A stretch of DNA of 64,000 nt from Pseudanabaena sp. lw0831. GTDB lineage: Bacteria; Cyanobacteriota; Cyanobacteriia; Pseudanabaenales; Pseudanabaenaceae. Numbering within the stretch: position 1 is the first letter of the stretch; each line of letters starts with the position of its first letter. The notes under the pieces are model-generated. The model made no database searches, was not told where the DNA came from, and saw only the letters and a list, made by a program, of their open reading frames with translations. The DNA is taken from contig NZ_BBJB01000115.1 of assembly GCF_016584665.1 (NCBI RefSeq), forward strand, positions 1 to 64,000, read 5' to 3'. The position numbers were made by a program, and so were the translations under genes. This document shows, in pieces, positions 22,491 through 49,504 of the stretch.

Positions 22491-24173
22491 ATGTTTTCGG
22501 CTAATAAATCAATAAGTAGATCAATGAGATATTCGCTGCGTCGCTTTGTGGCTTGGTTTGCGATCGCCATCATCACAATCACCACATTATTTGCCTGTAC
22601 AAATGGCAAAATCATCAATAACGGGAAACTGGGGATTAGCGATCGCACTGATGAGCGCATCGTTTTGGGCACAACCAGCAAAATTCGCACGCTCGATCCT
22701 GCCGATGCCAACGAATTTTTTATCAGCAATATTTTTTACAACACGCTCGAACGTCTTTACACTTACAAAGAAGGTTCAAACGAGATCATTCCACAACTGG
22801 CGGCAGATATGCCTAAGGTTAGTGAAGATGGCTTAATCTATACAGTGCCAGTGCGAACAGGGATCAAATTTCACGATCGCACCAATTTTAATGCCTATAC
22901 AATGAAATTTGCCTTAGACCGCTTCATGAATTCTAAAGGCGCACCAGCATATATCTTGACCGATGTGATCGAAGCCATTTCTGTATCAAATGAAACTGAA
23001 CTGATTTTTAAGCTCAAACAACCTTTACAATTTTTCCCCAAGTTCTTAGCATTTACTGGAGCCGCCGCAATATCTCCGCAAGTTTATAAACATATTAAAG
23101 ATGAAAAGACAGGCAAGCTATTATTCTTGCCTGATAAATTAGTTGGCACTGGTCCCTATCAAGTTACACAGTTTGTCGAAGGTAGCTACTTACGCTTAGA
23201 TACATTTCCAGATTATTGGGGTAAAAAACCTGTCAATAAAGGGATTGATATTCAGTTTTTCTCTTCTAATTCCAACTTGTTGAACGCATTTAAAACTGGT
23301 GCTGTTGATATAGCTTTTCAAACGCTCACGCCAACCCAAGTCAAGAATGTAGAGACCAATGCTAAACAAAATGGTTGGACAATCGCCTCAGGTCAAGGTG
23401 CAACCATCCTATATATGGTATTAAATACGCAGCAAGTACCACTCAATGACGTGCGCGTGCGCCAAGCTTTAGCAGCCGCGATCGATCGCCCTCTGTTGGA
23501 ATCGCGTATATTTTTTAACCAACGTGCTCCCCTATATAGCCTAATCCCTAGCGCTTTTGCAGATTCCAAACCCGTATTCGAGCAAAAATATGGTGATGGC
23601 AACGGTAAACTAGCGCGGCAATTGCTAGAGTCGGCAGGATATTCCGACGATAAACCCGCTCAAATTACAATTTGGTATTCACCAAAATATGGCGGTAACG
23701 GCGACCTCATCGCCAGCACTCTGCGGGCCTCAATTCAAAAAAATGTCGGCAAAATTTTGCAGATCAAAACTGAGCGCGTTGAAAATACTGTTGGTTTTGC
23801 TTTCATTGATAAAGGCGTATATCCCGCCTATTTACTTGATTGGGTTCCCGATATTCTTGACCCCGATAATTACATCAAGCCATTTTTAGAATGTGAAGAA
23901 GCAAATGGCGATCGCTGCACAAAGGGTAGTAGTCAGTTTCAAGGGTCATTTTATAACAACCCAGAAATGAATGAGTTGATTGCTAAACAGCGTAAAGAAC
24001 GTGACGTAGTTAAGCGATCGCAAATACTCCAAAAAATCCAAGAACTTTTAGCTGAGGATGTGCCATTTATTCCGCTCTGGCAAAACAAAGAATACGCCTT
24101 TGCTCAAAAAGGGTTACAGGGAGTCAAAATCGAACCAAACCAACAACTTCCCTACTGGAACATTTCCAAATAA
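22491..24173 (+). CDS. Peptide/nickel-type ABC transporter substrate-binding lipoprotein
   Basis: 560 residues from this start; ATGs at 22458 and 22524 are alternatives. The lipobox is TLFAC within WFAIAIITITTLFAC, so the mature protein is lipid-anchored in the periplasm. SBP_bac_5 (DppA/OppA) motifs: VLGTTSKIRTLDPADANEF, YTVPVRTGIKFHDRTNFNA and LVGTGPYQVTQF. It should bind oligopeptides or similar solutes and deliver them to an ABC importer; the permease genes are not adjacent. The last codon and stop lie inside the next hairpin. Confidence 0.9.
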   Translation: MFSANKSISRSMRYSLRRFVAWFAIAIITITTLFACTNGKIINNGKLGISDRTDERIVLGTTSKIRTLDPADANEFFISNIFYNTLERLYTYKEGSNEIIPQLAADMPKVSEDGLIYTVPVRTGIKFHDRTNFNAYTMKFALDRFMNSKGAPAYILTDVIEAISVSNETELIFKLKQPLQFFPKFLAFTGAAAISPQVYKHIKDEKTGKLLFLPDKLVGTGPYQVTQFVEGSYLRLDTFPDYWGKKPVNKGIDIQFFSSNSNLLNAFKTGAVDIAFQTLTPTQVKNVETNAKQNGWTIASGQGATILYMVLNTQQVPLNDVRVRQALAAAIDRPLLESRIFFNQRAPLYSLIPSAFADSKPVFEQKYGDGNGKLARQLLESAGYSDDKPAQITIWYSPKYGGNGDLIASTLRASIQKNVGKILQIKTERVENTVGFAFIDKGVYPAYLLDWVPDILDPDNYIKPFLECEEANGDRCTKGSSQFQGSFYNNPEMNELIAKQRKERDVVKRSQILQKIQELLAEDVPFIPLWQNKEYAFAQKGLQGVKIEPNQQLPYWNISK

Positions 24174-24208
24174 TCAAAAGGAGCGCTTTGCGCTCCTTTT
24201 GATTATTT
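24168..24208. repeat. 41-bp perfect hairpin, GAGCGC-TTT-GCGCTC apex
   Basis: 19-bp arms (AAATAATCAAAAGGAGCGC) around TTT. The left arm begins with the final Lys codon and stop codon of the substrate-binding protein gene. The inner stem AGGAGCGC-TTT-GCGCTCCT recurs at 28016-28046. Confidence 0.94.
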
Positions 24209-24211
24209 GCT

Positions 24212-24254
24212 CTATAAATGGTTGCTCTCGCGTAGCGAGAGCAACCATTTATAG
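24212..24254. repeat. 43-bp perfect hairpin, CTCGC-GTA-GCGAG apex
   Basis: 20-bp arms (CTATAAATGGTTGCTCTCGC) around GTA. Follows the previous hairpin by three bases, between convergent genes. Confidence 0.93.
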
Positions 24255-30694: not shown

Positions 30695-30726
30695 AACAAA
30701 AAGGGATGCAAAGCATCCCTTTTTGT
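30694..30726. terminator. Bidirectional terminator-like hairpin
   Basis: 15-bp perfect arms AACAAAAAGGGATGC around AAA with A and T tracts on both sides. It lies between convergent genes and starts at the last stop base of the upstream one. Confidence 0.88.
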
Positions 30727-30731
30727 TGGGA

Positions 30732-35395: not shown

Positions 35396-35450
35396 AAACC
35401 CCAAAGAGTGAGATGCGGCGCGAAGCGCCGCATCTCACTCTTTGGGGTTT
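35396..35450. repeat. 55-bp perfect hairpin, GCGGCGC-GAA-GCGCCGC apex
   Basis: 26-bp arms (AAACCCCAAAGAGTGAGATG then CGGCGC) around GAA, ten bases after the chlM stop. Confidence 0.95.
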
Positions 35451-37336: not shown

Positions 37337-37393
37337 AAAACTAATTTCAGGAATTTCAGCGCCACGGGCGCTGAAATTCCTGAAATTAGTTTT
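37337..37393. repeat. 57-bp perfect hairpin after hemC
   Basis: 27-bp arms (AAAACTAATTTCAGGAATTT then CAGCGCC) around ACG, starting nine bases after the hemC stop. The first of three hairpins in the 325-bp gap before ilvA. Confidence 0.95.
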
Positions 37394-37408
37394 CTTAAAA
37401 CCTGATGC

Positions 37409-37489
37409 TAAGTATCTAGGCAAAGCCTCAAAAGGCAAAGTGCCCGCTAAGCTGGCACTTTGCCTTTTGAGGCTTTGCCTAGATACTTA
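37409..37489. repeat. 81-bp palindrome, MITE-like copy C (TIR TAAGTATCTAGGC)
   Basis: Arms of 36 bp (outer TAAGTATCTAGGCAAAGCCT) pair perfectly; the apex CGCTAAGCT adds three more pairs with one mismatch. The outer end is like the terminal repeats of copies A and B (AAGTAGCTAGGC), but the inner core is different. Confidence 0.9.
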
Positions 37490-37534
37490 TTCCAACGCCC
37501 GAAAGTGTGACTACACTTTCGGGCGTTGGAATAA
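37487..37534. repeat. 48-bp perfect hairpin, GAAAGTGT-GACT-ACACTTTC apex
   Basis: 22-bp arms (TTATTCCAACGCCCGAAAGT then GT) around GACT. Shares its central 22 bases with 30310-30343, yet the 11-12 bp outer stem is different on both sides. It overlaps the preceding palindrome by three bases. Confidence 0.95.
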
Positions 37535-37653
37535 GTTCCTGATTAAAGATGCGAGAAAAAGAGTAAAATTGTAGCTCACTAAACCAATTCTTATAGTTTG
37601 TAGTACCAACGGCGCGGCAACCTATAAAAATTAATAATTAAGTTGATAGCGTT

Positions 37654-45392: not shown

Positions 45393-46937
45393 ATGAATGA
45401 CCTTCTCTCCGCACAGGCGATCGCCACGGCTGCACAAATGCAAGCGATCGAGAATTTGATTTTTCAGGCAGGTATGCCCGTAGCAGCCCTGATGGAAAAA
45501 GTCTCCTTGCGGATTAGCCAAAGGTTAACCGAACTCTTTCCTGTTCAATCCTATGGGCGGATTGGCGTACTAGTTGGCTCTGGTCATAACGGCGGTGATG
45601 CCTTAGTGGTTGCGCGAGAACTGCATCATCAAGGGCGACAGGTGAAAATTTATACACCGTTCCCCAAATCTAAACCCTTAACGCGAGTGCATGGGTGCTA
45701 TGCCAAAAGTTTAGGTATTCCTTTTGTAAATTTGGAAGCATTGCAAGATTGCGATTTGCTAATCGATGGCATATTTGGCTTTGGATTAGAGCGTGATGTG
45801 GTTGGCGATGTCGCGATCGCAATCAACACAATCAATAATTGGCAAATCCCAGTTCTCAGCATTGATATACCATCAGGGCTTCATACCGATCATGGCGGTG
45901 TAATGGGAACGGCGATTTGTGCCACCAATACCTTTTGTTTAGGTTTATGGAAGCGTGGCTTGCTGACAGAAGCTGCTACGCCCTATGTCGGGAAACTCGA
46001 AAGGATCGGATTCGATATCCCCGAAAAATTTGTACTTCAGATCCTTGGTAAGCAACATCCATTATGGCGAATTAATCCCCAAGCAGTAATGCGTGATCGC
46101 CTTCCGATTGCACGCAATCCCATAACTCATAAGTATGAAGTTGGGCATTTACTGCTAGTTGTTGGTTCTCAGAAATATGGAGGGGCTGCGCTTCTTGCCG
46201 CTATGGGTGCAAAAGCCACAGGGGTGGGCATGTTATCGATCGCTGTTCCAAATTCTCTCAAATCTTTGATTCTTGCCCAAGTTCCTGATGCTCTCGTCAT
46301 TGGCTGCCCTGAAACAGAATCTGGCGCGATCGCTTCATGGCCGGATCTCGATTTGCAAAAATATCAAGCGATTGCTTGTGGTTGTGGGCTTTCTACTGAA
46401 GCATTCCCAATTGTGGAACAGATGATAAATAGCGATCGCCCTTTGGTTCTTGATGCTGATGGATTAAATGCTTTAGCTAGTATGGGCAAATCTCAAATCA
46501 CCCAAAAATTAAGTCAGCGCACTAGTGCGCTGATTATGACACCACATTGGGGTGAGTTCTGTCGATTATTTCCAGATTTGCGTGAAGTTGAAAGATTAGA
46601 GGCTCTGCAAATTGCGGTCAATCAAACGCAAGCAACTATTTTACTTAAGGGTGCAAGAACAGCGATCGTGTTCCCTCAGGACACAACATCACAGACATGG
46701 ATCAACCCAGAAAGTACATCAGCCTTGGCAAGAGGAGGCAGTGGCGATGTGTTAGCAGGACTGACTGGGGGGATGTTAGCGCAAGGCATGGCAGCAAGTG
46801 ATGTAGCGATCGCGGCGGCAGTTTGGCATTCTCAAACAGCGATCTGGCTAGCTAGTCAGCGCACCGAGATGGGTGTTGATCCTGTGACTCTTGCTCAAAA
46901 TTTATTGCCATTTTTATCCGCCACACAACTTAAATAA
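45393..46937 (+). CDS. nnr: Bifunctional NAD(P)H-hydrate epimerase/dehydratase
   Basis: 514 residues. N-terminal NnrE/YjeF domain with LVGSGHNGGDALVVAREL, and C-terminal NnrD/ribokinase-like domain with PLVLDADGLNALA and the anion-hole ARGGSGDVLAGLTGGML. It repairs hydrated NADH and NADPH: the first domain flips R to S hydrate, the second dehydrates S hydrate with ATP or ADP. Starts at the base after the PP2C stop. Its last residues QLK and stop lie inside a palindrome that also forms the end of the convergent gene. Confidence 0.95.
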   Translation: MNDLLSAQAIATAAQMQAIENLIFQAGMPVAALMEKVSLRISQRLTELFPVQSYGRIGVLVGSGHNGGDALVVARELHHQGRQVKIYTPFPKSKPLTRVHGCYAKSLGIPFVNLEALQDCDLLIDGIFGFGLERDVVGDVAIAINTINNWQIPVLSIDIPSGLHTDHGGVMGTAICATNTFCLGLWKRGLLTEAATPYVGKLERIGFDIPEKFVLQILGKQHPLWRINPQAVMRDRLPIARNPITHKYEVGHLLLVVGSQKYGGAALLAAMGAKATGVGMLSIAVPNSLKSLILAQVPDALVIGCPETESGAIASWPDLDLQKYQAIACGCGLSTEAFPIVEQMINSDRPLVLDADGLNALASMGKSQITQKLSQRTSALIMTPHWGEFCRLFPDLREVERLEALQIAVNQTQATILLKGARTAIVFPQDTTSQTWINPESTSALARGGSGDVLAGLTGGMLAQGMAASDVAIAAAVWHSQTAIWLASQRTEMGVDPVTLAQNLLPFLSATQLK

Positions 46938-46980
46938 ATAAAGTCGGCGCTTCGCGCCGACTTTATTTATTTAAGTTGTG
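46924..46980. repeat. 57-bp perfect palindrome spanning both convergent gene ends
   Basis: 27-bp arms (CACAACTTAAATAAATAAAG then TCGGCGC) around TTC. The left arm encodes the end of nnr (TQLK-stop) and the right arm encodes the end of the GGDEF-EAL gene (AQLK-stop) in mirror image, so the two unrelated proteins end with the same residues. Confidence 0.97.
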
Positions 46981-49504
46981 CTTGCAGTAACAAAGTTGCT
47001 TCATGGGCAGGGACGGGACGACTAAAGAGATAGCCCTGTACTGCGTCACAATCATGCGAGCGCAAAAATTCTAATTGTTCTTTGCGCTCTACCCCTTCCG
47101 CAATCACCCTGAGATTAAGATTATGAGCCATTGCAATAATTGCAGAGGTAATTGCGGCATCATCTTTATTCTGAGGAGTTTCGCGAATAAAGCTAGCATC
47201 AATTTTGACCTTGCTAACAGGCAACAATCGTAAATAACTCAGCGAAGAATAGCCAGTTCCAAAATCATCAATCGATACGCTCATTCCTAGGGATTTTAAT
47301 TCCTTTAACATCGTAATCGTTATATGTTGGTCTTGCATTACCAAGCTTTCAGTAATTTCTATTTCTAAATATTGAGGCTCTAAATCTATCTCTGTCAGGA
47401 TTTGCATGATGCGATCGCAAAGATCTACCACTTGAAATTGTTTTGAGGAGAAATTTACAGCCATCCGAATCGGCGGTAATCCCTGCCTTTGCCATGCTCG
47501 ATTTTGCGCACAGGCAGTTCTTAGCACCCATTCGCCCAAGCGCACGATCAAGCCATGCTCTTCGGCAGCAGGAATGAATTGATTAGGGGGAACCCATCCG
47601 AGGTCAGGATGTAGCCAGCGTGCTAACGCCTCCATACAATCGATCTCCCCCGTGACAAGATTAATTTGTGGTTGATAGAATACCTGAAACTCTGAACGCT
47701 CCAGAGCTTGACGAATCCCATTCTCGATCGCCACATATTCCTTAACTTTTGCACCGATTGCATGGTTGTAAAGTTGATAATGATTGCGACCACGTTCTTT
47801 AGCGCGAAACATTGCTGTATCAGCATTTTTCATTAAAGTCTCTTCATCCGTACCATCATTAGGATAGAGACTGATGCCAATACTAGTACCAATATAAAGT
47901 GACATTTCTTCAACAAAGAAAGGACTTTCAAAGGATTGTAAAATCATTTGGGCAAATTGTTGAATTGACTCTACACTTTGCAATTCTGGGACGAGAATCA
48001 TAAACTCATCTCCACCCATCCGTGCCAAGAAAGTGCGATCAAACATGCATTCGCTCAGCCTTTTAGCAACTTCGATGAGGAGGCGATCGCCTGCGGCATG
48101 TCCCATCGTATCGTTTACTAACTTAAAGCGATCTAAATCAAGAAACATTACCGCTAGTATCGGGGAAATGGATTTGATTTCGATGAGATTTTTTTGATCG
48201 AGATCGATTTGCAGTTGTTCGTGGGCATTTACTAAAGCTGTTGAAAGGCGATCGCGAAAAAGAACACGATTTGGTAAATTTGTGAGCGAGTCATGAAAAG
48301 CAAGATGTTCGATCTCGGCTTTAGCCCGCTTACTTGATGTAATATCTTCAACCGTTCCCTCAAAATACAGGATATCCCCAGCCTTATCCCGCACTGCATG
48401 AACATTTTCTGATGTCCAAATGATTGATTTATCTTGCCGATACACCTCGGACTCAAAAAATTTAACGTCCTCTTGTTCTTCCAAAAGTTTGATTAACTCC
48501 AATCTCCGTTGAGGATCGACATAGAGTTGATGCTCGATATCCGTAAGATTAGCAATCAAGTCTTCTGGAGATGCATATCCATATATTTCAGCTAGCATTG
48601 GATTAGAAATTAAAAATCTTCCATCAACAGTTGACTGAAAAATCCCTTCAATAGCATGTTCAAAAATGCCACGATACTTGGCTTCAGCTAGTTTGAGGGC
48701 TTCTTCAGCCTGCATTTTTTGAGTGACATCATTTACCAAAATCAGTTCACATTTTCGATTTTTATAGTCCAGTGTATGCGCTGAAACATCCACAAAAATA
48801 TGCGTGCCATCTTTTTTGCAATGTCTCCATACTTCAGGCACGCTAAATCCCGCTGACACCTTAGCGATCGCCTCTAAGAGTTTTGGCATATCTTCAGGAG
48901 GGCGAATGTCTTGCAATGTCATTGACAGAAATTCATCTTCACTATAGCCATAGTGATTGATTGCAGCCTGATTTACTGCCAAAAAACCCAGTGTTTCCAG
49001 ATCGTATATCCACATGGGATTAGGATTATTCTCGAATAGATAGCGAGTCCGGTTTTCAAAATCTTGCTGATTTTTCGCGGTCTGTTCCCAATCAGTAATA
49101 TCTTCAAATCGATTCACAAAGTGAGGTTCCTTCGAGCCGCTAATATCAAGATCGGTGCTTTGGAGAACCTGCACAATTTGACCGTCTTCACGGATATAAC
49201 GCACATTGAGATAACAATGATCGATTTCTCCTGACAGCAATCGCTCTTTCAGAAAATAGTAAGCGGATAAATCATCAGGATGACAAATCTGCTCATACTT
49301 AAGTTGGCAGATTTGCTCAGAGCTATATCCTAATAAATCGCAAAAAGATACGCTAATTCCCCGAATTTGGTCATCTAGAGTTGTCTCAAAAACACCCACA
49401 GTACTATTCTCGATGCATTTAGCAATTCGCATCAAGTTTTTGAGACGCTCTTGCTTGAGGATCTCTTGATATATGGGATTAAGATGTTTATATCTTTCAG
49501 CCAA
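46967..49504 (-). CDS. PAS-GGDEF-EAL cyclic-di-GMP signalling protein
   Basis: 845 residues, no TM. Three PAS domains (about 10-130, 140-265, 270-390) sense signals, followed by GGDEF with RMGGDEFMILV (active-site G-G-D-E-F intact) and an EAL domain with EALARWLHPDLGWV and VSIDDFGTGYSSLSYL (metal-binding D-D). Both catalytic motifs look intact, so it can make and degrade cyclic di-GMP. Likely links light or redox to motility or adhesion, but no cofactor site was identified. Confidence 0.94.
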   Translation of the reverse strand: MAERYKHLNPIYQEILKQERLKNLMRIAKCIENSTVGVFETTLDDQIRGISVSFCDLLGYSSEQICQLKYEQICHPDDLSAYYFLKERLLSGEIDHCYLNVRYIREDGQIVQVLQSTDLDISGSKEPHFVNRFEDITDWEQTAKNQQDFENRTRYLFENNPNPMWIYDLETLGFLAVNQAAINHYGYSEDEFLSMTLQDIRPPEDMPKLLEAIAKVSAGFSVPEVWRHCKKDGTHIFVDVSAHTLDYKNRKCELILVNDVTQKMQAEEALKLAEAKYRGIFEHAIEGIFQSTVDGRFLISNPMLAEIYGYASPEDLIANLTDIEHQLYVDPQRRLELIKLLEEQEDVKFFESEVYRQDKSIIWTSENVHAVRDKAGDILYFEGTVEDITSSKRAKAEIEHLAFHDSLTNLPNRVLFRDRLSTALVNAHEQLQIDLDQKNLIEIKSISPILAVMFLDLDRFKLVNDTMGHAAGDRLLIEVAKRLSECMFDRTFLARMGGDEFMILVPELQSVESIQQFAQMILQSFESPFFVEEMSLYIGTSIGISLYPNDGTDEETLMKNADTAMFRAKERGRNHYQLYNHAIGAKVKEYVAIENGIRQALERSEFQVFYQPQINLVTGEIDCMEALARWLHPDLGWVPPNQFIPAAEEHGLIVRLGEWVLRTACAQNRAWQRQGLPPIRMAVNFSSKQFQVVDLCDRIMQILTEIDLEPQYLEIEITESLVMQDQHITITMLKELKSLGMSVSIDDFGTGYSSLSYLRLLPVSKVKIDASFIRETPQNKDDAAITSAIIAMAHNLNLRVIAEGVERKEQLEFLRSHDCDAVQGYLFSRPVPAHEATLLLQAQLK

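Follow-up and report, generated by a model that had tools for sequence, protein, structure and literature searches.

A perfect palindrome shared by the ends of two convergent genes in Pseudanabaena and its probable origin by template switching

Results

The window analyzed here is a stretch of 64,000 nucleotides in contig C115 of the 5.26-Mb genome of Pseudanabaena sp. lw0831 (G000); relatives from the same genus are referred to as Pseudanabaena. It contains nnr, encoding a bifunctional NAD(P)H-hydrate epimerase/dehydratase, and a convergent PAS-GGDEF-EAL gene (GGDEF-EAL below), whose 3' ends meet in an inverted repeat (Table 1). nnr closes with ACA CAA CTT AAA TAA (TQLK-stop) and the GGDEF-EAL gene with GCA CAA CTT AAA TAA (AQLK-stop). 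The last three codons and the stop of both genes lie inside the repeat, both proteins finish in QLK, and the two stops mirror each other about position 46952. A sequence-only reading of this DNA had proposed that one perfect palindrome holds both C termini, and the repeat search bore this out, with the arms complementary at 27 of 27 positions. The TTC loop is not self-complementary, and the element is thus strictly an inverted repeat with a 3-nt spacer. Both arms encode protein, as that reading also held, 14 nt of each open reading frame (ORF) being covered. Its view that chance is an unlikely source stands as well: 59 such repeats were found in 124 kb of the contig compared to none in one first-order Markov control, and the RNA fold of the palindrome reached -45.6 kcal/mol (z = -10.2).

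Table 1. Positions of the two convergent genes, the parts of the palindrome, and two sister palindromes in the window
Feature	Position	Strand	Basis or remark
nnr; tail probably overwritten	45393..46937	+	Pfam YjeF_N + Carb_kinase
PAS-GGDEF-EAL gene, start codon uncertain; tail ancestral, judged by comparison	46967..49504	-	Pfam PAS + GGDEF + EAL
Perfect inverted repeat, 57 bp, 27-bp arms, 3-nt loop	46924..46980		Sequence and repeat search, RNA fold
Left arm	46924..46950	+	First 14 nt = nnr end (putative copied tract)
Loop TTC	46951..46953
Right arm	46954..46980	-	Last 14 nt = GGDEF-EAL gene end (putative donor of the copied tract)
G+C-rich core AAAGTCGGCGC-TTC-GCGCCGACTTT	46940..46964		Terminator-like
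Sister palindrome	35396..35450		C/G change in both arms compared to G017
Sister palindrome	30695..30727		Loop inverted (AAA/TTT) and AA length difference in both arms compared to G017

The core resembles those of about 20 other G000 hairpins, two of which carry the same AAATAAATAAAG variant, and may be of separate origin from the outer arms. The latter, CACAACTTAA, equal the old GGDEF-EAL end, were absent from the remaining hairpins read, and are, judging from the sequence, gene-derived and locus specific. In a terminator scan, the plus strand of the hairpin passed, but an interruption breaks its T tract, which can also pair within the long stem; no site was reported on the minus strand. An Rfam search of the window gave zero hits.

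Orthologues of both genes were located across the genus. In many genomes, the two genes lie apart; they are still convergent in G000, G008, G019, G010, G016, G021, and G002 and, by contig positions, in G013. Two genomes have an additional nnr copy of greater divergence (67-68% identical), located at G003:C57:6680-8197 and G013:C70:3382-4899. The GGDEF-EAL tail QAQ[LF][KN] (QAQLK, QAQFK, or QAQLN) persists in most genomes, irrespective of the neighbor and of whether a palindrome covers it, including G005, G017, and G020, in which nnr lies elsewhere. The nnr tails are diverse (ERIN, NQEFLAFAE, QTLKTKKL, QLSKFYK, QISKSQ, QHFFRAVLIG, and others), and an end in Q[LF]K was found only in four related genomes, G000 (TQLK), G008 (PQLK), G019 (TQLK), and G010 (AQFK). 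Only in these four does the nnr tail equal the GGDEF-EAL tail over 12 to 17 nt, inverted on the chromosome; no such match was present in G016, G005, G012, G022, G002, G021, or G017.

Because it is conserved regardless of palindrome or neighbor, the GGDEF-EAL tail is the ancestral one and the nnr end derived, which answers, across Pseudanabaena, the question of ancestry that the earlier reading had referred to an orthologue alignment. Since the GGDEF-EAL tail is old, whereas the nnr tail is variable and matches it only where the genes converge, the GGDEF-EAL end was probably copied in inverted orientation onto nnr. The counter-case named in the same reading, both genes ending in QLK in the absence of a palindrome, was not encountered for nnr, whose QLK or QFK end occurs only with a convergent junction and an inverted copy. 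In the tree of both proteins, (G010,((G008,G019),(G000,G017))), the node joining G010 is modestly supported (0.68). The simplest history would be one gain of the copied tail on the stem of this clade, followed by loss of the junction in G017, in which a rearrangement break falls at the focal site.

The arms have probably changed again since then. The cores of G008 and G019 are imperfect, that of G019 reading GTCGGCGC-TTT-GCACTGCC compared to GTCGGCGC-TTC-GCGCCGAC in G000. The right core arm is GCACTGCC in both G008 and G019 and GCGCCGAC in G000; its three differences lie together, and each complements the left arm GTCGGCGC, common to G000 and G019. The loop was changed (TTT/TTC) and not inverted between these relatives. 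Compared to G008 and G019, each arm of G000 also has 4 bp inserted and reads CTT in place of CTC, and this CTT is found in the GGDEF-EAL end of G017 as well. These patterns suggest that the G000 arms were secondarily made identical again, a concerted change that is the mark expected of quasipalindrome correction. A different locus may be the source of some of the changes present in both arms, because the core likeness is shared by the 20 or so hairpins mentioned above, among them the two with the AAATAAATAAAG variant.

In 49 orthologous hairpin comparisons with flanks 92.6% identical, 34 complementary double changes were counted compared to 1.7 expected, together with 59 single and 2 noncomplementary double changes; these counts are approximate and do not represent independent events, since the comparisons share branches and some loci occur in several pairs. 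Of the 3-nt loops, 30 could be compared unambiguously: 10 were inverted, 6 identical, and 14 different in some other way. The corresponding numbers among 618 flanking 3-mers were 1, 486, and 131. Loop inversion is a published footprint of template switching (PMC8604942, PMC8794818); it was found here genome-wide, as were paired and multinucleotide changes in the arms. Both sister palindromes in Table 1 show two-arm differences of this kind. Arms also grew by flank copying: at G008 C6:75221-75287, an inverted copy of the left flank, itself retained in G000 and G017, stands on the right in G008 only; at G008 C6:45598-45654, the left arm was altered to match the right flank; and similar growth was seen in one G017 C1 hairpin. 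The G008 hairpin opposite G000 C16:107499 is re-centered, and at sites 77816 and 82365, unrelated hairpins occupy one position in three genomes.

Such hairpins abound in Pseudanabaena. In G000, 175 near-perfect hairpins were found in 505 kb; at this density of about 3.5 per 10 kb, compared to 0.2 in the other cyanobacteria sampled, the whole genome would hold some 1,800. At an arm score of at least 22, their density was 1.28 per 10 kb in Pseudanabaena loci versus 0.01 in loci from other bacteria (1.04 Mb), and none were detected in 386 kb of other cyanobacteria, in which an arm score of 14 yielded 0.21 per 10 kb. The core GGCGCNNNGCGCC is present in 94 to 690 copies in each of 23 Pseudanabaena genomes (reversed control, 0 to 2) and is scarce in most other cyanobacteria, G025, G027, and G030, with 58 to 124 copies, being exceptions. 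The hairpins are mostly intergenic, favor convergent over divergent gaps, and are concentrated at gene 3' ends, their arms overlapping the 3' ends of 95 ORFs and the 5' end of none. Within about 1.17 Mb from four Pseudanabaena genomes, 12 convergent gene pairs, some of them mutually orthologous, have both ORF ends in one palindrome, and the focal palindrome reaches deepest into both genes. Tail identity was 0.72 where 9 nt or more of the ORF end fall within a palindrome (n = 14, not independent) and 0.86 without a palindrome (P = 0.006), a suggestive link between overlap and C-terminal divergence. At G000 C16:93028-94246, the gene tail HPNP, contained in a palindrome in both G000 and G017, is missing from G008.

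Of eight synteny breaks, two, one of them the G017 break at the focal site, are bounded by palindromes on both sides, a sample too small for a conclusion. Contigs of G000 end at or adjoining hairpin cores (G000:C35:1-13 and G000:C5:19749-19761), which suggests that hairpin repeats break the assembly. An assembly artifact is an unlikely source of the hairpins themselves, similar ones being present in independent assemblies, including genomes of a single or few contigs.

Discussion

We consider it probable that a terminator-like hairpin between nnr and the GGDEF-EAL gene was perfected and lengthened by replication template switching, i.e., quasipalindrome correction. Synthesis would stall at the hairpin, and the nascent strand would fold back, copy its own other arm together with adjoining sequence, and then return to the true template. 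One or a few such switches on the branch leading to G010 and G000/G017/G008/G019 probably overwrote the nnr end with the inverted GGDEF-EAL end, giving the nnr tail ending in Q[LF]K-stop, and further switches in the G000 lineage would have restored arm identity. The same process probably acts on hairpins at gene 3' ends throughout Pseudanabaena, and the focal palindrome would then be one instance of a genus-wide rewriting of hairpin arms, which goes beyond what a single window could reveal. All evidence for template switching is comparative, none of it coming from a mutation seen in real time: the ancestral tail, the concerted arm changes, the loop inversions, arm growth by flank copying, and the location at 3' ends emerge from the comparison of genomes, and we infer the step at the polymerase and termination of transcription by the hairpin from both sides.

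Quasipalindrome-associated template-switch mutagenesis is known from the Ripley model, the thyA hotspot of E. coli, and lacZ QP reporters (PMC7202029). As in the E. coli quasipalindromes, imperfect inverted repeats would be perfected in one step with the nascent strand as the template. However, those are described as mutational hotspots, whereas a large part of all hairpins in Pseudanabaena appears to owe its form to the process, which also enters gene ends. Template switching has also been reported to create and maintain RNA hairpins (PMC8794818) and to rewrite coding sequence in yeast (PMC8604942). Multinucleotide paired changes, inversion of loops or spacers, and arm homogenization are common to these cases and ours, but they concern RNA genes and yeast ORFs, and here, bacterial terminator-like hairpins are affected and a gene end was apparently written from its convergent neighbor. 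The mitochondrial coding palindromes of Nematomorpha, for which repeat conversion or template switching was proposed, are likewise perfect inverted repeats with both arms protein coding (PMC6649704). In contrast to these palindromes, which lie within genes and extend up to 284 bp, the Pseudanabaena arms come together in an intergenic space, with effects confined to C-terminal tails.

Selection for a strong bidirectional intrinsic terminator, with point mutations that restore pairing being favored and arms entering the genes as the intergenic space is short, appears unlikely as the main explanation. Bidirectional intrinsic terminators are known, and inverted repeats are in excess after stop codons (PMC6060812). 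The focal hairpin resembles such terminators in its G+C-rich stem with A and T tracts, the plus-strand T tract being interrupted, and in its position at gene 3' ends, but differs from them in its 27-bp perfect stem, into which the stop codons and some coding sequence of the two genes are drawn. One terminator could serve both convergent genes. The position of strong hairpins at gene 3' ends and the lack of Rho in cyanobacteria (PMC13289151) are in line with terminator selection, and selection on an RNA hairpin would likewise yield paired changes. Yet it leaves unexplained three adjacent changes that match the other arm, as well as perfect 27-bp stems that include codons, and in Synechococcus elongatus, only a minority of transcript ends are due to intrinsic terminators (PMC13289151). 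Template switching is favored over selection on RNA because RNA pairing cannot explain loop inversion or flank copying, although the two may act together.

Still less likely is cutting and resealing of cruciforms or hairpin tips, e.g., by SbcCD or a resolvase, as the activity that flips loops and homogenizes arms in place of a polymerase template switch. Frequent loop flipping and the near-universal presence of a second SbcCD pair in the genus would fit, but cutting by itself copies no flank onto the other side, and the second pair is also present in G001, which has the lowest core count.

Least probable is that both gene ends came by chance from the termini of an inserted mobile hairpin (REP, MITE, or small dispersed repeat): although the core belongs to a dispersed family and MITE-like elements with palindromic cores insert cleanly in G000, the outer arms match the old GGDEF-EAL end and none of the other hairpins read, the genome has a single Y1_Tnp match, with no link of the repeat to a RAYT transposase, and syntenic relatives offer no clean empty site at the focal junction. 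REP/REPIN elements resemble the Pseudanabaena hairpins as many short intergenic palindromes, but the outer arms of the latter are mostly unique to their locus, and RAYT-type transposases are not abundant. The MITE-like elements, which have TAAGTAGCTAAGCA-type terminal repeats, lie at G000 C16:58566-58608 and 159799-159837 and are absent from the orthologous G008 sites. A further element, about 105 bp long and bearing inverted ends (L212:7824-7930, G000 C16), has dozens of copies of 84 to 98% identity in G017 and G008.

If template switching formed the focal palindrome, one C terminus was written from a neighboring gene via a palindrome, with the direction of copying indicated by the orthologues. 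The formation of palindromes is generally investigated as a rare hotspot mutation; in this genus, it would be frequent enough to be followed by genome comparison. Paired changes in bacterial hairpins are not proof of selection at the RNA level, because template switching alone produces them. The mutational mechanism has been described before, and what looks new is how intensely it acts here and that it rewrites the C terminus of a convergent neighbor. In the open-access literature, we found no description of such a process in Pseudanabaena.

More tentatively, and with slightly less than even confidence, we speculate that a palindrome-making process is unusually active throughout Pseudanabaena, perhaps as a distinctive state of replication or hairpin repair, and that it continually perfects, flips, lengthens, and replaces 3'-end hairpins and is a source of new C termini. 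Elsewhere in the window, three long palindromes, one with 40-bp arms, lie in 200 bp at 37337-37536, and two distinct perfect ones are separated by 2 bases at 24167-24254.

Loss of hairpin or single-strand nucleases was considered as a cause of the high activity and rejected, SbcC, SbcD, and ExoVII all being present. The second SbcCD pair is at most a lead, and its occurrence in G001 speaks against it as the sole cause. A second SbcD above the family cutoff was detected in none of 15 other cyanobacterial genera sampled and in nearly all Pseudanabaena genomes; in G000, an SbcC match adjoins it (G000:C78:8432-12584 and orthologues).
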